Source: Acetobacteraceae bacterium (lineage in GTDB: Bacteria; Pseudomonadota; Alphaproteobacteria; Acetobacterales; Acetobacteraceae). From it: a DNA stretch of 36,735 bases. Below the pieces are notes generated by a model, which saw only the letters and a program-made list of their open reading frames with translations, searched no databases and was not told where the DNA came from. Each line of letters begins with the position of its first letter. The first letter of the stretch is position 1. Shown here piece after piece: positions 8,708 through 32,741 of this stretch. The stretch spans positions 1 to 36,735 of the forward strand of contig JADLHF010000116.1 of the NCBI GenBank assembly GCA_020848935.1. Direction: 5' to 3'. The translations under genes were made by a program, and so were the position numbers.

Positions 8708-8748
8708 TGGATGAAGTTTTCTTGCTTCTTTTTGTTCACAAAAAGAAG
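8708..8748 (-). repeat. A/T-rich hairpin-plus-box element, single copy (CTTC type)
   Basis: A 10-bp inverted repeat, CTTCTTTTTG / CAAAAAGAAG with a 4-base loop (8725-8748), is preceded by the box TGGATGAAGTTTTCTTG (8708-8724). It is the same unit as the right half of the pair at 27721-27826, in the same orientation. No partner was found upstream. It stands between the orphan frame and cinA, upstream of both starts, so it does not mark the end of a recognised gene. Confidence 0.75.
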
Positions 8749-8813
8749 AGTCCTTGCGCTGGCCATGTCGCGGGGTTCGCGGTGTAATGCGCGGGACGGC
8801 GGGAGAAACAAGC

Positions 8814-10085
8814 ATGCGCATCGAGATCATCTGCACCGGCGACGAGGTGCTGACCGGCAAGATCGTCAACAGCAATTTCAGCTACATGGCGCAGAAGCTG
8901 GAGGATGTCGGGTTGGCCGTGGTGTGGGGCACCACGGTGGGCGACGACCGGGGCACGCTGCTGAGCGCGTTTCACCTGGCCGCCGCGCGGGCCGACATCG
9001 TGATCGTCAATGGCGGGCTGGGCCCGACGGTGGATGATCTGAGCCAGGAGATCGCCGCCCAGGCGGCCGGCGTGGAGCTGGAGCTGCACGAGGGCTGGCT
9101 GGAGAAGATGGAGGGGTTCTTCACCCGGCGCGGGCGCGCCATGCCGCCGAACAACCGCAAGCAGGCGATGCTGCCGGTGGGCTCCGAGATGCTGGACAAC
9201 CCGATCGGCACGGCATGCGGCTTCGCGATGGATATCGGCGCGGCGCGGTTCTTCTTCACCCCCGGCGTGCCGCGCGAATTGCGGCGGATGCTGGAGGAGC
9301 AGATCATTCCGCGGCTGCTGGCGCGCAACGGGGCGGCGGCGACGATCCGGCTGAAGCGCTACCACGGCTACGGGCTGGGCGAGTCCCATATCGACAGCCT
9401 GTTGCAGGGGGTGGAGGCGCTGGACCCGAGCGGCGGGGTGAAGCTGGGGTTCCGCGCCCACTACCCGCAGATCGAGACCAAGCTGACCATTCGCGGCGTG
9501 GATGCCGAGGATGTGGCGCGCAAGCTGGCCCCGGTGGATGCGGAGATCCGCCAGCGGCTGGGCAATTTCATCGTCTGCGAGGACGACCAGTCGCTGGAGG
9601 GCGTGGTCAACGACGCGCTGGGCAAGGTGGGCGGGCGGCTGGCGGTGGTGGAGACGTTCACGTCCGGCGAGATCGCCCTGCGCCTGGCGCACCTGGCCGG
9701 GGCCGAGGCGGTGTTCCGGCGCGGCATCATTGCGCGCGACCTGCACCAGGTGTTCGAATCGCTGCGGCTGCCGCCGCATCTCGATATCGGCGAATACACC
9801 GAAGCCCTGGCGGCCGAGGTGGCGGCGGCGGTGCGCGAGCAGGCCGGGGCCAGCCATGCGCTGGCGGTGCTGATCGACCTGGACGAGGGGGCCGACCGGA
9901 TGGATCTGGGCGGCACGATCTGGGTGGCGGTGGGGCGCGAGGGCGATACGGTGGTGCGCCGCGCGCGCATCCTGGGCGGGCGGGAGTGGATCCGGCTTGG
10001 CGCCGTGGAACTGGGGCTGGACTGCATGCGGCGCTATCTGCAGGGCTTGCCGGTGATCGAGCGGACGGATTTCGAGCGGAGGTGA
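8814..10085 (+). CDS. cinA: CinA family protein (molybdopterin-binding-like domain plus degenerate nicotinamide-nucleotide amidase domain)
   Basis: The 423 residues have the two-domain CinA layout. The N-terminal MoaB/MogA-like domain (about 1-170) reads EIICTGDEVLTGKIVNSN and NGGLGPTVDD (66-75), as in enzymes hydrolysing ADP-ribose or handling NAD breakdown products. The C-terminal domain (about 260-415) corresponds to PncC, which deamidates NMN. There the expected AESCTGG is VETFTSG (residues 279-285). The later Tyr and Lys segment is also replaced (GIIARDLHQVF), so the Ser/Tyr/Lys catalytic set appears lost. The ATG at 8814 has GGAG eight bases upstream. The next gene is a molybdenum enzyme, but about 230 bases and a repeat pair lie between. 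The family is secure; amidase activity is doubtful. Confidence 0.85.
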   Translation: MRIEIICTGDEVLTGKIVNSNFSYMAQKLEDVGLAVVWGTTVGDDRGTLLSAFHLAAARADIVIVNGGLGPTVDDLSQEIAAQAAGVELELHEGWLEKMEGFFTRRGRAMPPNNRKQAMLPVGSEMLDNPIGTACGFAMDIGAARFFFTPGVPRELRRMLEEQIIPRLLARNGAAATIRLKRYHGYGLGESHIDSLLQGVEALDPSGGVKLGFRAHYPQIETKLTIRGVDAEDVARKLAPVDAEIRQRLGNFIVCEDDQSLEGVVNDALGKVGGRLAVVETFTSGEIALRLAHLAGAEAVFRRGIIARDLHQVFESLRLPPHLDIGEYTEALAAEVAAAVREQAGASHALAVLIDLDEGADRMDLGGTIWVAVGREGDTVVRRARILGGREWIRLGAVELGLDCMRRYLQGLPVIERTDFERR

Positions 10086-10097
10086 AGGAAGGAAGGC

Positions 10098-10215
10098 GTT
10101 CTTTTTTGAAAAAAAGAACCAAAAAACTTCTGTCCACTTGGGGGTGAACAGCACGGTTCGCGGGCGGGCGGGTTGGAAGATATTTTTTTCTTCCTTTTCT
10201 GCTCGAAAAGACGAA
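10098..10215. repeat. Paired A/T-rich inverted-repeat element (left half intact, right half decayed)
   Basis: The left half is a perfect 10-bp hairpin, GTTCTTTTTT / AAAAAAGAAC with a 2-base loop (10098-10119), followed by box CAAAAAACTTCTGTCCA (10120-10136). After about 38 bases of GC-rich spacer comes a decayed, inverted CTTC-type half (about 10175-10215: GGAAGATATTTTTTTC, then an imperfect stem TTCCTTTTCT / CGAAAAGACGAA). The element occupies the gap between cinA (stop 10085) and the sulfite oxidase gene (start 10315). Confidence 0.75.
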
Positions 10216-14816: not shown

Positions 14817-14987
14817 CTTCTTTTTCCAAGGAAAAAGAAGCAAAAAGACTTTTATCCGTGGGTTTTGGCGCAGAACTGGATGGGGTTTGGGTAGAAGAAG
14901 GAGAAGCGTGGGTCCTTCGCTGCGCTCAGGATGACGGCAGTCACGCCGGGGATGAAAGTTTTTTGGTTCTTTTTTTCAAAAAAGAAC
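14817..14987. repeat. Paired A/T-rich inverted-repeat element with a long spacer
   Basis: The left half is an 11-bp hairpin, CTTCTTTTTCC / GGAAAAAGAAG (14817-14840), plus box CAAAAAGACTTTTATCC (14841-14857). The right half, inverted, is box GGATGAAAGTTTTTTG (14950-14965) plus hairpin GTTCTTTTTT / AAAAAAGAAC (14966-14987). The spacer of about 92 bases holds GTCCTTCGCTGCGCTCAGG (from 14912), which I recognise from memory as a sequence scattered in many environmental bacterial genomes. The right hairpin ends four bases from the stop of the CoA-transferase gene. Confidence 0.8.
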
Positions 14988-14991
14988 ATTC

Positions 14992-16206
14992 TTACTTCCC
15001 TGCCACGGCGCCGGATTGCATGAGGGCGGTGATCTCGGAGCTGGTGTAGCCGGCGTCGCGGAGGATTTCGCGGCTGTGTTGGCCGATATCGGGGGCGCGG
15101 CGGGGTGGGGTTTTCGGGCTGCCTTCGATCGTGAAGGGGGAGTCCACGGTAAGCATGGAGTCGTTCTCGAAGGGGCGCAGGGCGCCGACGGCCAGGGCTT
15201 GTTCGTCGGCGGCGATTTCCTCGGTGGTGCCGATGGGGCCGAAGGTGATGCCGGCGCGGTCGAGGGTTTCGCGCCAGTGGGCCAGGGTGTTGGCGGCGAA
15301 GATGGTGTCGCAGATGTCCATGAGCGCGGTGGCGTTGGCGCGGCGGGCTTGGGTGGTGGCGAAGCGGGGGTCGGCGATCAGGTCGGGGCGGCCGATGGCG
15401 GCGGCGAATTGCGGCCATTGGCGGTCTTCGCTGACCACGGCGACGATGAACCATCGGGCGTCGCTGGTGTGGTACATGTTGCCCAGGGCGTTGAGGGTCT
15501 GGGCGCGTGGCAGGCGGGGCGGGATGGTGCCGCCGCAGAGCACGGCCTGGATGAGGAAGCTGTTCGCCCACATGCCGGCGTTGAGCAGCGACGCCCGCAC
15601 TTCCGCCCCCTGCCCTGTGCGTTCACGGCGATACAGCGCGGATGCGATGCCGCCGAACAGGGCGGAGGCGGTGGGGTGGTCGCCCATGCCGGGGACGGAG
15701 CGGGCGGGCATGGCGGCGCTGTCGGCGCGGACCTGGTCCATCAGGCCGGAGCGGGCCCAGTAGGCGGTGGTGTCGAAGCCGGTCTTGTCGGCTTCGGGGC
15801 CGGCTTCGCCGTAGGCGGTGAGGGAGGCGTAGATCAGGCGGGGGTATTTGGTGGCGAAGTCGGCGTAGCGCAGTTTGAGGCGTTCGCGAACCGGGAGGGG
15901 GAAATTGGTGACGAAGACGTCGGCCTGGGAGACCAGGCGTTCGAGGACGGCGCGGCCGCCTGGGGATTTCAGGTCGAGTGCCAGGCCGCGCTTGGTGCGG
16001 CTGTCCATCAGCCAGGCGTAGTCGATGCCGGGGTTGGGGGTGCCGGGGCGGGTGTGGAGCTGGCGGTAGGGATCGCCGGCGCCGGGGGGTTCGATCTTGA
16101 TCACGTCGGCGCCGTGGTCGGCCAGGATGGTGGCGGCGGCGGGGCCGGCGATGAAGCTGGCGCAGTCGATGACCTTGAGGCCGGCGAAGAGTGGGGCATC
16201 GGTCAT
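14992..16206 (-). CDS. Family III CoA-transferase (CaiB/BaiF type)
   Basis: A 404-residue family III CoA-transferase, which moves CoA between carboxylic acids through an aspartyl-CoA thioester. Visible: GLKVIDCASFIAGPAAATILADHGADVIKIEPP at the N-terminus (quoted motif core VIKIEPP at 35-41), LDLKSPGGR (78-85), and GMGDHPTAS with nucleophile Asp176. The start at 16206 overlaps the stop of the FAH gene by four bases (ATGA), so translation is coupled. Together with the FAH hydrolase, the hydrolase and the crotonase, it suggests activation and breakdown of an organic acid. The acid cannot be named: formyl-CoA, succinyl-CoA:benzylsuccinate and carnitine-type enzymes share these motifs. Confidence 0.92.
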   Translation of the reverse strand: MTDAPLFAGLKVIDCASFIAGPAAATILADHGADVIKIEPPGAGDPYRQLHTRPGTPNPGIDYAWLMDSRTKRGLALDLKSPGGRAVLERLVSQADVFVTNFPLPVRERLKLRYADFATKYPRLIYASLTAYGEAGPEADKTGFDTTAYWARSGLMDQVRADSAAMPARSVPGMGDHPTASALFGGIASALYRRERTGQGAEVRASLLNAGMWANSFLIQAVLCGGTIPPRLPRAQTLNALGNMYHTSDARWFIVAVVSEDRQWPQFAAAIGRPDLIADPRFATTQARRANATALMDICDTIFAANTLAHWRETLDRAGITFGPIGTTEEIAADEQALAVGALRPFENDSMLTVDSPFTIEGSPKTPPRRAPDIGQHSREILRDAGYTSSEITALMQSGAVAGK

Positions 16207-26519: not shown

Positions 26520-27710
<1,191 letters not shown>

Positions 27711-27720
27711 AAGAAAGCAT

Positions 27721-27826
27721 GTTCTTTTTTGAAAAAAAGAACCAAAAAACTTTTGTCCATTAAGATGGCGGATCGCGCCTGCGAATGGATGAAGTTTTTT
27801 TGCTTCTTTTTGTTCACAAAAAGAAG
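27721..27826. repeat. Paired A/T-rich inverted-repeat element, best-preserved copy
   Basis: Left half: hairpin GTTCTTTTTT / AAAAAAGAAC with a 2-base loop (27721-27742), then box CAAAAAACTTTTGTCCA (27743-27759). A 26-base GC-rich spacer follows. The right half is inverted: box TGGATGAAGTTTTTTTG (27786-27802), then hairpin CTTCTTTTTG / CAAAAAGAAG with a 4-base loop (27803-27826). Seen in opposite orientation, the two boxes agree at most positions. The element fills the gap between the two acyl-CoA dehydrogenase genes. Confidence 0.85.
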
Positions 27827-27870
27827 ACTTCCTTCCTTACTCCCTCCCACCTTCTGGGGCTGCACGACCC

Positions 27871-29010
27871 ATGGCCATGATCCTCTCCGCCGATGCCAAG
27901 ATGGTGCGCGAAACCGCGCATGACTTCTTCCGCGAGAAATCCCCGATCCTGGCGCTGCGCAAGCTGCGCGACAGCGCGGACCCCGACGGCTTCTCCCGCG
28001 CGCTGTGGCGCGAGATGGCGGAGCTGGGCTGGTCCGGCTTCCTGGTGCCGGAGGATCACGGCGGCTCCGGCTTCGGCCATGTCGGGCTGGGCCAGGTGAT
28101 GGAGGCGGCCGGGCGCACGCTGGCCGCCACGCCGCTGTTGGGCACGGCGCTGATCGGCGCGGTGGCGATCGACCGGGGCGGCAGCGAGGCGCAGAAGGCG
28201 GCGCATTTTCCGGGGCTGGTGGGCGGGGAGACGATTTTTGCCCTGGCGCTGGAGGAGGGGGCGCATCACGCGCCGTACCGCATTGCGACCACGGCGAAGA
28301 AATCCGGCGGCGGCTGGGTGCTGGATGGCGCCAAGCAGTTCGTGCTGGACGGGCATGTCGCCGATACGCTGATCGTGGTGGCGCGCACCTCGGGCGGGCC
28401 GCGCGAGCGCAGCGGGATCACGCTGTTTCTCGTGCCCGGCAATGCGCCGGGGGTGAGCCGGCGGCGCTCGATCATGGTGGATAGCCGCAATGCCGCGCGG
28501 ATCACGCTGGCCGGCGTGGCGGTGGATGGCGAAGCGGTGCTGGGGCCGGTCGATGGCGGGGCCGACCTGCTGGACGGCATCCTGGATTGCGCCCGCGCCG
28601 GGCTGGCCGCCGAGATGCTGGGCAGTTCGGCCGAGGCGTTCGAGCGGACGGTGCAGTACCTGAAGGACCGCAAGCAGTTCGGCGTGCCGATCGGCAGTTT
28701 CCAGGCGCTGAAGCACCGCGCCGCGCAGATGTACTGCGAGGTGGAGGCCACGCGCTCGGCGGTGACGGCGGCGCTGGATGCGCTGGACAGCGGCGCCAAC
28801 GACGCCAGCCTGTTGGCCAGCCTGGCCAAGGCCAAGGCCAACGCCACCGCGCGGCTGACCGGCGACGAGGGCATCCAGATGCATGGCGGCATCGGCATGA
28901 CCGATGAGCACGAGATCGGCTTCTTCCTCAAGCGCGCAAGGGTGGCCGAGGCGACGTTTGGCGACGCCGCTTTCCATCGCGACCGCTACGCCGCCGTGTC
29001 GGGGTACTGA
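27871..29010 (+). CDS. Acyl-CoA dehydrogenase-like subunit lacking the usual catalytic Glu
   Basis: A 379-residue acyl-CoA dehydrogenase-fold protein. LGWSGFLVPEDHGGSGFGHV, the LDGAKQFVLDGHVAD core and DRKQFGVPIGSFQALKH are family blocks, as is IQMHGGIGMTDEHE near the end. Aligned with medium-chain enzymes, the Glu of YEGTSQ falls on Phe363 (ATFGDAA), so this subunit should not be active alone. It fits the inactive partner of a heteromeric dehydrogenase with the preceding gene. ATG at 27871 or 27877 could start; no strong ribosome site is seen. The next gene's ATG overlaps its stop by one base (TGATG), showing coupling with the reductase. Confidence 0.88.
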   Translation: MAMILSADAKMVRETAHDFFREKSPILALRKLRDSADPDGFSRALWREMAELGWSGFLVPEDHGGSGFGHVGLGQVMEAAGRTLAATPLLGTALIGAVAIDRGGSEAQKAAHFPGLVGGETIFALALEEGAHHAPYRIATTAKKSGGGWVLDGAKQFVLDGHVADTLIVVARTSGGPRERSGITLFLVPGNAPGVSRRRSIMVDSRNAARITLAGVAVDGEAVLGPVDGGADLLDGILDCARAGLAAEMLGSSAEAFERTVQYLKDRKQFGVPIGSFQALKHRAAQMYCEVEATRSAVTAALDALDSGANDASLLASLAKAKANATARLTGDEGIQMHGGIGMTDEHEIGFFLKRARVAEATFGDAAFHRDRYAAVSGY

Positions 29011-30251: not shown

Positions 30252-32741
30252 ATGGCAACGGTCTTCACGGCAATCAGCGGCGGCGCCGGCCAGGAACTCT
30301 GGGTCAGCTACGGCACGCCTTCAAGCACCTTTCTGCTGAAGGACATCCGCTCCGGCGCCACCGGATCTGCGCCGTTGATCCTGGGCAACCTGCTGGTCAA
30401 CGGGATGGCGGACGCCAAGCGCGCGATTTTCACCGCCAGTGACGGTGCCAACGGCAATGAGTTGTGGGTCACCGATGGCTCCCCCGGCGGCACGGTGCTG
30501 TTCAAGGACATCAACGCCGGCGCCGCGGACTCGTTCGCCTCCAGCTGGGTATCCGTGGGCGCGCATGCGGTGTTCACGGCCAGCGATGCGGCCAACGGCA
30601 ACGAATTGTGGGTCAGCGACGGCACCAGCGGCGGCACCACCCTGCTGGCGGACCTGAATGCCGGCAGCGCCGATGCCAGCCCGGTGTTCCTCGGCTATCT
30701 GGTGACCGCCGGGGTGCCGGACACCAGCAAGGCGATGTTCGTGCTGTCCGACGGGACCAGCGGGCGCGAGATCTGGGTGAGCGATGGTACCGCCGGCGGC
30801 ACCGTGCAGTTGAAGGATATCAACCCCGGCGCGGGCGGATCCAGCCCATCGGCCTGGACCCCGGTGGGCAGCCACGCCGTGTTTTCGGCCAATAACGGCA
30901 CCAACGGGCAGGAACTATGGGTCAGCGACGGCACCGCGGGCAGCACTGCCCTGCTGCTGGACGCCGCCGCCGGCCTGGCCGGTTCGGACCCCGAGGTTCT
31001 GGGCTACCTGCTGGTCAATGGCGTGGCCGACACCACCCGGTTGCTGGTGTCCCTGAACGACGTGACGAATGGCCGCGAGCTTTGGGTGACCAACGGCACC
31101 GCCGGCGGCACCGTGTTGTTCAAGGATTTGAACGCCGGCAGCGCGGGGTCCGACCCCGGCGCCTGGACCGCGGTGGGCAGCCACGCCGTGTTCGCCGCCA
31201 CGACCGCGGCGGCCGGCACCGAGCTGTGGGTCAGCGACGGTACCGCAGGCGGCACCTCGCTGCTGAAGGACGCAAACCCCGGTGCGGCCAGCGCGGCGCC
31301 GGAGATTCTCGGCTACCTGATGGTCAATGGCGTGGCGGACACCGGCAAGCTGCTGGTGCGTCTCGACGATGGCGCCGACGGGACCGAGTTGTGGACCACC
31401 GACGGCACGCCGGGCGGTACGGTGCTGTTCAAGGACATCAACCCCGGTGCCGGCGGCAGCCAGCCCGGCGCATGGATCAGCGTGAACGGACACGCCGTCT
31501 TTGCCGCCGACGATGGCAGCCACGGCAGCGAATTGTGGGTCAGCGACGGCACGGCCGGTGGCACCTCGCTGCTGTTGGATGCGCGGCCGGGGGCCAATGG
31601 TTCGTTGCCATCCTTCGTTGGCTACCTGTCCCGCAATGGCGTGGTCGATACCGGCCAGGCGCTGTTTCTGATGGATGACGGGCTGACCGGGCAGGAATTG
31701 TGGATCACCGACGGCACGCCGGCGGGGACCATGCTGTTCAAGGACATCAATGCCGGTGCTGCCGGCTCCTTCGCCACCACCGGGATGGAGCTGGCCGCCA
31801 CCAGCGTGGATCTGACCGCGGCGCCCGGCCCGGTGACGCTGGCGCTGGGCGAAGGGGGCGCGGACAATGTCGTCGGCTCGCCCTTCGGCGACACGCTGGA
31901 CGGCAACAGCGGCAACAACGTGCTGCTGGGTGCCGACGGCGACGACATGCTGCGCGGCCTGGGTGGCAACGACCTGATCGACGGCGGCACCGGCTACAAT
32001 ACCGCGGTCTTCACCGGCATCCGCGGCGCCTCCGAACTGCGGTTCGAGGAGCCGACACCCGGCACGTTCAACGTGGTCGTGGTCGGGCCGGACGGCGTGG
32101 ACACCACCACCAATGTGCAGGCGCTCCAGTTCAGCGACCGCACCACGCAGGTGCTGGGTGTCGGCGGCGTGCAGCATCTGGTCAATGTGTCGTTTCCCGG
32201 CACCGGCACCAGCCGCTTCATGATCGGCGACACCTATACCGGACCGGTATCGGGGCTGACTGACGAGTTCGTGTTTCCGACCAGCGAGAACATCAACATC
32301 GCCTCGAACCTGCCGAATTCGTTCATCCGCACCGGTTCCGGCGACGACGCGATCACCGTGTCCTCGGGCCGCAACGTGATCGATGCCTTCACCGGCTCCA
32401 ACTTCCTCACCGGGGGCAGCGGACAGGATACGTTCTTCCTCGACGCACGTGGCGGCGGCGTGACGTGGGACACCATCGTCGATTTCGGCATCGGCGACGA
32501 GGTGACTCTGTGGGGTTATGTGAATGGCGTGTCGACTGACGGGTTCGACAAGGACAAATGGTATTCAAGCGACGGCGTCGATCCGTACAAGGGTTTGACG
32601 GTGCATGCCAAGCTGGACGGCAGCACCATCAGCGCGTCGATCACCTTCGCCGGCCTGGCCTTCGCCGACCGCGACAAGCTGACGGTGACCACAGGCAATG
32701 TCGGCGGCAGCGACTATCTCTACATCACCCGGGTGTCCTGA
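30252..32741 (+). CDS. Large ELWxxDGT-repeat protein with RTX-like C-terminus, probable type I secretion substrate
   Basis: The 829 residues carry no N-terminal signal. Ten copies of a motif like ELWVSDGTAGGTVLFKDINAG begin at residues 15, 70, 118, 173, 221, 276, 324, 379, 427 and 482. Spacing alternates exactly 55 and 48, giving a 103-residue two-blade unit. Long linkers read LGYLLVNGVADT and short ones read SVGSHAVF. Such repeats probably fold as a beta-propeller or solenoid. Residues about 541-582 hold RTX-like calcium nonapeptides (GNNVLLGADGDD, GGNDLIDGG). The C-terminus (GSGQDTFFLDARGG, TIVDFGIGDEVTLWGY) resembles type I secretion signals. No transporter gene is in the window. Calcium-dependent folding outside the cell is inferred. 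Function unknown: adhesin or matrix protein. Confidence 0.85.
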   Translation: MATVFTAISGGAGQELWVSYGTPSSTFLLKDIRSGATGSAPLILGNLLVNGMADAKRAIFTASDGANGNELWVTDGSPGGTVLFKDINAGAADSFASSWVSVGAHAVFTASDAANGNELWVSDGTSGGTTLLADLNAGSADASPVFLGYLVTAGVPDTSKAMFVLSDGTSGREIWVSDGTAGGTVQLKDINPGAGGSSPSAWTPVGSHAVFSANNGTNGQELWVSDGTAGSTALLLDAAAGLAGSDPEVLGYLLVNGVADTTRLLVSLNDVTNGRELWVTNGTAGGTVLFKDLNAGSAGSDPGAWTAVGSHAVFAATTAAAGTELWVSDGTAGGTSLLKDANPGAASAAPEILGYLMVNGVADTGKLLVRLDDGADGTELWTTDGTPGGTVLFKDINPGAGGSQPGAWISVNGHAVFAADDGSHGSELWVSDGTAGGTSLLLDARPGANGSLPSFVGYLSRNGVVDTGQALFLMDDGLTGQELWITDGTPAGTMLFKDINAGAAGSFATTGMELAATSVDLTAAPGPVTLALGEGGADNVVGSPFGDTLDGNSGNNVLLGADGDDMLRGLGGNDLIDGGTGYNTAVFTGIRGASELRFEEPTPGTFNVVVVGPDGVDTTTNVQALQFSDRTTQVLGVGGVQHLVNVSFPGTGTSRFMIGDTYTGPVSGLTDEFVFPTSENINIASNLPNSFIRTGSGDDAITVSSGRNVIDAFTGSNFLTGGSGQDTFFLDARGGGVTWDTIVDFGIGDEVTLWGYVNGVSTDGFDKDKWYSSDGVDPYKGLTVHAKLDGSTISASITFAGLAFADRDKLTVTTGNVGGSDYLYITRVS

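Follow-up and report, generated by a model that had tools for sequence, protein, structure and literature searches.

Uptake-sequence pairs of Neisseria are dispersed, inverted and located at gene ends, where they double as terminators. REPINs, according to the accessible part of their description (PMC3116915), are extragenic elements present in hundreds of copies, with two conserved inverted palindromic ends and a variable spacer capable of forming a hairpin, and they are randomly distributed in extragenic space. The GTAG and CGTC superfamilies of REPs are characterized, in the sections available of PMC3733652, as palindromic, high in copy number and contiguous with coding regions; there, GTAG REP termini often give flanking ORFs their stop codon and CGTC REPs are reported to be missing in Acetobacteraceae. 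The portion consulted of the RepRanger paper (PMC12306157) counts 446 of 4,072 E. coli REPs at 15 nt or less from a stop codon, links these to ribosome stalling, says that REPs also protect mRNA from exoribonucleases, and lists 1,369 REPs for Lichenicola cladoniae.

The element analyzed here differs from the Neisseria pairs in its longer, self-hairpinned arms, its replaceable core and its patchy rather than genus-wide distribution. It shares its general layout, extragenic position and copy number with REPINs, whereas its arms are A/T-rich in a GC-rich genome, its ends come in distinct types (A with B or C), it hugs stop codons instead of scattering at random as in the REPIN text available (PMC3116915), and no RAYT was found in most carriers examined. 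Like the GTAG and CGTC REPs it is palindromic, abundant and next to coding regions, but no such tag was seen, and the stops at its AAGNAAGN flank are mostly TAG or TAA. Compared with the E. coli REPs, as far as the consulted part of PMC12306157 describes them, 129 of 196 stop-facing ends lie at most 16 nt from the stop and the element is a symmetrical composite. Searching 5.39 million open-access papers for five strings of the element returned one match, by title on a Yersinia toxin; a literature search, with subscription papers mostly outside its scope, gave no description of the element in the titles or abstract starts among the matches listed.

The locus lies in a window of 36,735 nt, the whole stretch of Acetobacteraceae DNA that was analyzed, whose genome is referred to below as the source genome. 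The initial annotation had described three paired elements here (10098-10215, 14817-14987 and 27721-27826) with a shared layout of hairpin, box, spacer, inverted box and inverted hairpin, and both coordinates and architecture proved correct; at 10098-10215 the paired layout stood, but the right arm is degenerate and scores below the profile threshold. The interval 27721-27826 corresponds to the core of a dispersed element, of which this is one copy, and the repeated unit extends beyond that core to an outer purine-rich AAGNAAGN flank, with many copies in the genus matching to approximately 27711-27843. Read in order, the copy at 27711 consists of TGA, AAGAAAGCAT, GTTCTTTTTTGAAAAAAAGAAC, CAAAAAACTTTTGTCC, a short spacer, the inverted half ending in CTTCTTTTTGTTCACAAAAAGAAG, and then ACTTCCTTCC. 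In general, an element runs from AAGNAAGN through a hairpin arm, an A5-7 box and an exchangeable spacer to the inverted box, the inverted arm and NCTTNCTT. Each AAGNAAGN end is followed inward by an A/T-rich hairpin and an A-rich box, and the arms form A/T tracts within 70% GC DNA. Because AAGNAAGN is present outside the arms at stop-facing, start-facing and distant ends alike, this flank is probably part of the element.

Three types of end were distinguished: A, with a GTTC..GAAC stem, and B and C, with CTTC..GAAG stems and unlike loops. The element at 27721 is A-C, that at 14817 is B-A', and that at 10098 combines A with the degenerate arm. The 10086-10215 element follows a CinA-like gene (8814-10085), and the A' end of the 14817 element comes after the stop of a CoA-transferase III gene on the minus strand (14992-16206). 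Elsewhere in the window, 30252-32741 encodes a large protein containing RTX calcium-binding repeats, and DNA repeats with a period of 309 nt occur there; a protein of 1,227 residues, with TIG/PPC-like matches, follows on the opposite strand. Rfam gave no matches above gathering score in the window.

Table 1. Coordinates of the element at 27711-27843, its neighboring genes and the other element sites in the window.
Feature	Position	Strand	Description
Outer purine-rich flank	27711..27720	+	AAGAAAGCAT (AAGNAAGN motif), directly 3' of the TGA stop of the upstream gene
Arm A	27721..27758	+	hairpin GTTCTTTTTT-GA-AAAAAAGAAC (27721-27742) and box CAAAAAACTTTTGTCC
Variable spacer	27759..27789	.	complementary sides TCCATT..AATGGA
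Arm C, inverted	27790..27826	-	inverted box TGAAGTTTTTTTG (27790-27802) and hairpin CTTCTTTTTGTTCACAAAAAGAAG (27803-27826)
Right-end outer flank	27827..27843	-	CTTNCTTN (inverted AAGNAAGN); many copies elsewhere match to ~27843
Upstream gene, acyl-CoA dehydrogenase	26520..27710	+	element abuts its stop codon
Downstream gene, acyl-CoA dehydrogenase	27871..29010	+	first in-line ATG 10 nt after the upstream stop in six element-free congeners
Second element	10086..10215	+	flank AGGAAGGAAGGC, arm A (10098-10136), spacer, degenerate right arm (~10170-10215)
Third element	14817..14987	-	arm B (14817-14852), long spacer, arm A' (14956-14987)
Lone type C arm	8712..8749	-	38.8 bits; partner below detection; fourth arm site in the window

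The element had been called dispersed and arranged as inverted pairs, and both descriptions held beyond the window. In the source genome as a whole (301 contigs, 4.6 Mb in total, 95% complete), we counted 439 matches to a 19-base arm pattern when at most two mismatches were allowed, compared to 0 for the backwards pattern. We then applied three arm profiles, at a threshold of 11 bits, to 1.56 Mb from three congeneric genomes, namely ~400 kb each of G003 and G008 and 761,639 bases of the source genome, the latter being approximately one sixth of it and mostly contigs picked because they had matches. This yielded 389 arms of at least 11 bits after overlap removal. In the reversed-sequence control, there were 22 raw hits of at least 8 bits (A 3, B 19, C 0), two of at least 10 and none of at least 12. 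Since this control was near-empty and the backwards pattern had no match, the arms in the 1.56 Mb do not reflect chance.

Neighboring arms less than 400 nt apart formed 156 inward pairs, 15 outward pairs and none in the same direction; all inward pairs were within 250 nt. Their composition was strongly non-random (A-B 106, C-C 30, A-C 18, A-A 1, B-C 1, B-B 0). Spacers ranged from 7 to 174 nt, with 45-50 nt the commonest length. The 77 arms without an inward partner include some with a degenerate partner, as at 10098, and approximately 26 that are members of compact outward-facing pairs. Such inside-out elements, 13 compact cases among the 15 outward-facing neighbors, have back-to-back hairpins around linkers such as AAGCGCTT, with the boxes outward and a length of ~65 nt, and some lie between divergent genes (L061:13549, L155:5266, L155:12022, L164:18485, L166:10016, L168:11934, L195:5977, L158:11872, L065:15826, L069:7517, L191:5857, L067:2312, L169:9963). 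They look like an element cut in its spacer and rejoined at its ends.

We used a home-made codon-usage caller, for which gene starts are approximate, to place the pairs relative to genes. As the initial annotation had proposed, the elements lie between genes: 84 of the 156 pairs were in codirectional, 52 in convergent and 5 in divergent gaps, 14 were at stretch edges, and the one pair inside a called gene apparently reflects a miscalled start, an alternative tally making it a sixth divergent case. Gaps of at least 100 nt in the same DNA, element-bearing ones included, were 310 codirectional, 92 convergent and 151 divergent. Where both neighbors were known and the pair lay outside genes, 136 of 141 pairs followed the end of one or both neighboring genes, in most cases immediately downstream of the stop. 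The initial annotation had regarded a position always at operon ends as favoring a terminator over a mobile element, and this sign is largely present. The choice between mobile element and terminator may be a false one, as the data fit the element being both.

Stop-facing ends within 0-16 nt of the stop were mostly 7-12 nt from it, the remaining 67 of the 196 falling outside this range. This adjacency is not simply due to lack of room, since in codirectional gaps with at least 100 nt free, 16 of 31 elements were within 16 nt of the stop, compared to 2.8 expected from uniform placement. For the convergent elements, both ends were within 16 nt of a stop in 30 of 52 cases, one end in 15 and neither in 7. 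The stops 0-16 nt before an element (n = 129) were TAG in 50 cases, TAA in 47 and TGA in 32, against 345, 137 and 806, respectively, for all called genes; this shift suggests that the purine flank tends to contribute to the stop codon. The same anatomy was seen in eight stretches from four more genera, chosen for their matches (G158, G127, G028 and G093), where 17 of 26 arms lay within 26 nt after an ORF end compared to 9.4% of random positions.

Comparison of congeners revealed polymorphic empty sites, the sign of mobility that had been suggested as a check. At 27711, the element is present in G006 and absent from six congeners (G001, G002, G004, G005, G007 and G008); at 10098, it is absent from all seven matched congeners; and at 14817, it is present in six and absent from G003. 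A wider survey took paired elements with long enough flanks, an empty site being one with no detectable arm, and gave 33 elements with an orthologous site, 25 with at least one arm-less congener and 19 with at least one filled one; several of these entries are one site viewed from different genomes, and a manual count gave ~24 distinct sites, ~17 with an empty case, including some with a long unlike gap. In the cases compared by eye (27711, 14817 versus G003, L180:18354, L164:14070 and L181:4125), the position of the stop codon does not differ between filled and empty versions. No clear target duplication was recognized at the filled/empty junctions, where the flanks compared are only ~70-95% identical.

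Some sites have a more complex history. One orthologous gene end bears an A-B element in the source genome, a C-A' element with an unlike spacer in G003, and none in five other congeners. At a second, the convergent stops of G006 are separated by 3 nt, an element lies between those of G001 and G005, the source genome has B-A', G004 and G008 have A-B', and G003 has none. Given this variation in occupancy and arm type, gene ends therefore gain, lose or exchange elements; a species tree from a single 3.6 kb block was set aside as too uncertain to polarize gains versus losses. At one site, gaps of 589-701 nt in G001, G005 and G006 contain gene-like sequence (by reading) beside or without the element, and this sequence is not enclosed by element arms. 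L077 11115-11833 comprises ~720 nt in the source genome and ~90 nt at the same place in G005.

At the 14817 site in seven species, arm A was 100% and arm B 96% identical, figures partly conditioned on a search allowing up to three changes per arm, compared to 51% for the spacer and 83-86% for the flanks. The arms are not always intact; arm A is changed in G005, for example. That spacers are hypervariable, an idea prompted by this site, does not hold in general, as G001 and G005 have a near-identical spacer at another site. In 92 arms taken from 58 loci throughout the family, only three of the loci from the source genus, the arm stems keep pairing through two-sided changes: the outermost pair was C-G in 50 arms, G-C in 28, T-A in 4 and T-G in 2, i.e., paired in 84 of 92 compared to 49% expected. 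Spacers of different copies within a genome reached a similarity of at least 0.65 in 30 of 3570 pairs in the source genome, 40 of 351 in G008, 0 of 378 in G003 and 0 in shuffles, with 0.80 the best value between different sites. Together, alike spacers and held arms suggest that units were copied whole, with later spacer drift under arm retention.

Spacers of A-B elements fold better than shuffles (mean z -1.37; flank control -0.21), and the 30 C-C spacers (mean z -0.69) fold little better than the control. Covariation of the spacer ends beyond the consensus was clear only for the A-B (0 of 1000 permutations) and A-C (13 of 1000) sets of the source genome, and the other four sets were not significant. 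Of the 156 whole elements, 120 are predicted to fold with the first arm paired to the far arm and 36 with the first arm paired to itself, the same two shapes as are discussed for REPINs in the sections of PMC3116915 available. Of the hits to three other dispersed repeats, 6 of 8, 6 of 6 and 8 of 10, respectively, fall on the spacer side of an arm, where 3.7% of sequence would be expected; two of these repeats are further GC-rich hairpin repeats, besides GGGTCCTTCGCTGCGCTCAGGATGACG. The GGGTCCTTCGCTGCGCTCAGGATGACG repeat itself occurs at 14905-14945 of the window, inside the 14817 spacer, and also at L062:12132, L153:19509 and L469. Such modularity fits a terminator that could use any stem as its core. 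Exact conservation of the 35-nt arms, loops included, exceeds what a terminator needs.

The exact arm pattern was found in 97 of 397 genomes of the family and 31 of 102 genera, with 1 to 479 matches each and no backwards match, and in none of 285 genomes of the class outside the family. The assignment of this family to Acetobacteraceae follows its named relatives (Rhodopila, Acidisphaera, Belnapia and records labeled 'Acetobacteraceae bacterium'), the nearest of which are MAGs. Lichenicola cladoniae is presumably also a member of this family. Match counts jump within genera (0 to 201 in g17, 0 to 46 in g120), and identical 34-mers occur in different genera. A second pattern, for the inverted arm, was present in 38 of 140 genomes, with up to 814 matches in G111; G111 (814) and G158 (450) had the highest counts among the matches listed, and the family search with the first pattern gave at most one and four matches, respectively, in these genomes. 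BLAST of one element region, with the low-complexity filter on, matched two Pseudoroseomonas cervicalis plasmids over 36-40 nt of an arm.

The element also occurs in 42 stretches of viral contigs, on 36 contigs by manual count and with host flanks possibly included. Among the 111 arms on these contigs, 70 had an ORF of at least 80 codons ending nearby, with 19 of the 70 stops inside the hairpin loop. We compared ten such ORFs with PHROGs: seven matched families with an assigned phage function (two portal, two terminase, and one each of major head, baseplate and, weakly, tail fibre), one matched a family of unknown function and two had no match. In the IMG/VR contigs L372, L374, L376, L379, L382 and L401, elements stand directly behind terminase, portal, major head or baseplate genes.

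The layout had been read as that of REPINs or small MITEs. The body plan is indeed REPIN-like, with two inverted palindromic units around a variable spacer in high-copy extragenic elements that may fold as a long hairpin or a clover, as the accessible REPIN account describes (PMC3116915); mobility within the genome is inferred from alike copies and empty sites, and the lack of a recognized target duplication would also suit a REP doublet mobilized by a RAYT (Y1 tyrosine transposase). RAYT-mobilized membership is the part that did not stand. No Y1 match (Pfam PF01797) was found in the source genome, in agreement with none having been seen in the window, and 20 of the 26 further carriers tested were likewise without one, among them G111, G003, G158 and G257 with 400-814 pattern matches; some genomes of this set are incomplete. 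Weak Y1 matches were obtained in 6 of 26 element-bearing genomes (E 1e-8 to 4e-4; L412-L417) versus 0 of 26 element-free ones, a loose association that would favor a REPIN, but an arm lies near just one of the six loci (L416), ~0.9 kb away; we thus reject RAYT as the general mover. By inspection, the feet of the arms read GTTC..GAAC or CTTC..GAAG, AAGNAAGN lies outside them, and no GTAG or CGTC foot is visible; CGTC REPs are missing in Acetobacteraceae in the consulted part of PMC3733652. A REPIN in the strict sense is therefore quite improbable. A MITE of a classical DDE insertion sequence, its transposase elsewhere or lost, would explain the terminal inverted repeats, the signs of unit copying, the empty sites and, by eye, the longer similar outer ends common to some C-C elements of G003. 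Against this, no target duplication was recognized in the examined junctions, and elements sit closer to stop codons than if they had inserted uniformly across the free gap. No autonomous parent element was found among neighboring arms 250 nt to 4 kb apart in the 1.56 Mb sampled: there was no inward pair at 1-4 kb, a distance that could accommodate a transposase, and one of the two inward pairs separated by 400-1000 nt contains an ORF of 187 residues with no Pfam match. We consider this origin unlikely.

Two further explanations dispense with either movement or transcription. Ordinary terminators, homogenized by gene conversion or convergent selection and occasionally lost, would account for the gene-end position, the avoidance of divergent gaps, the exchangeable core and the copies behind phage structural genes, yet they agree poorly with identical 34-mers across genera, the spread of 0 to 201 matches among species of g17, alike spacers at different sites, filled/empty differences and unlike arm types at one orthologous gene end; immobility thus appears very unlikely. 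Alternatively, the arms could be DNA-level sites bound by a nucleoid, uptake or recombination protein, their gene-end position merely avoiding damage, which would suit near-invariant arms with loops included, amid diverging spacers and flanks, and A/T tracts in 70% GC DNA. This also seems rather improbable, because compensatory stem changes point to a folded form and stop adjacency is tighter than damage avoidance requires. Two other candidates were set aside: promoter elements, as divergent gaps are avoided and a sigma-70-type scan of the window gave 0 sites, and integron attC sites, considered because the elements adjoin stops, as empty sites have the same neighboring genes. The attC core consensus does not fit the present arms.

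We favor the reading, with a probability of about 0.6, that 27711-27843 is a copy of a composite palindromic repeat, mobile and confined to one family, which serves as a modular bidirectional gene 3'-end signal, most likely an intrinsic terminator that also protects mRNA 3' ends. A transcript from either side would first form an A/U hairpin ~10 nt after the stop codon; pairing of box and inverted box, together with the often GC-rich and self-complementary spacer, would then build the main stem; and the U-rich strand of the far arm (e.g., GUUUUUUUGCUUCUUUUUG) directly after this stem would cause polymerase release. The first arm would keep the main stem ~30 nt from a ribosome halted at the stop codon. 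In the part of PMC4824070 consulted, a terminator placed several base pairs downstream of a gene is reported to have almost no activity and to become more active farther away; the first arm would provide such spacing. By reading, a box-plus-spacer stem followed by a T-rich arm occurs in both directions downstream of genes, and a simple terminator scan was mostly silent: its calls, with loops of at most 8 only, were similar to those in shuffles (7 versus 7.1; 4 versus 6.7), and those near an element were 10130-10151 (minus) and 10175-10194 (plus), with none at 14817 or 27721. Strong termination would be costly, because elements also entered tight operon-like junctions, where it would silence the next gene. 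Homologous spacers indicate that whole units were copied to new places, mostly directly after stops and without visible target duplication, by something other than the known REP transposase as general mover; the units are common to genera, plasmids and phage contigs.

More tentatively, the element may be aimed at stop codons: it would land behind the last codon, even between convergent stops 3 nt apart, and bring stop-forming ends and a two-way terminator with an exchangeable core, moved by an undescribed non-RAYT machinery common to Acetobacteraceae and their phages. The pairs of filled and empty sites make targeting, mobility and function directly testable. A REPIN-like body plan is here uncoupled both from RAYT and from a random extragenic distribution, in a high-copy palindromic element that combines tight stop placement, strongly conserved arms and a replaceable core, and for which most carrier genomes examined yielded no Y1 hit. 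If the element terminates transcription, genomes of the family and their phages would acquire ready-made terminators horizontally, and operons would be split into new units where it lands.
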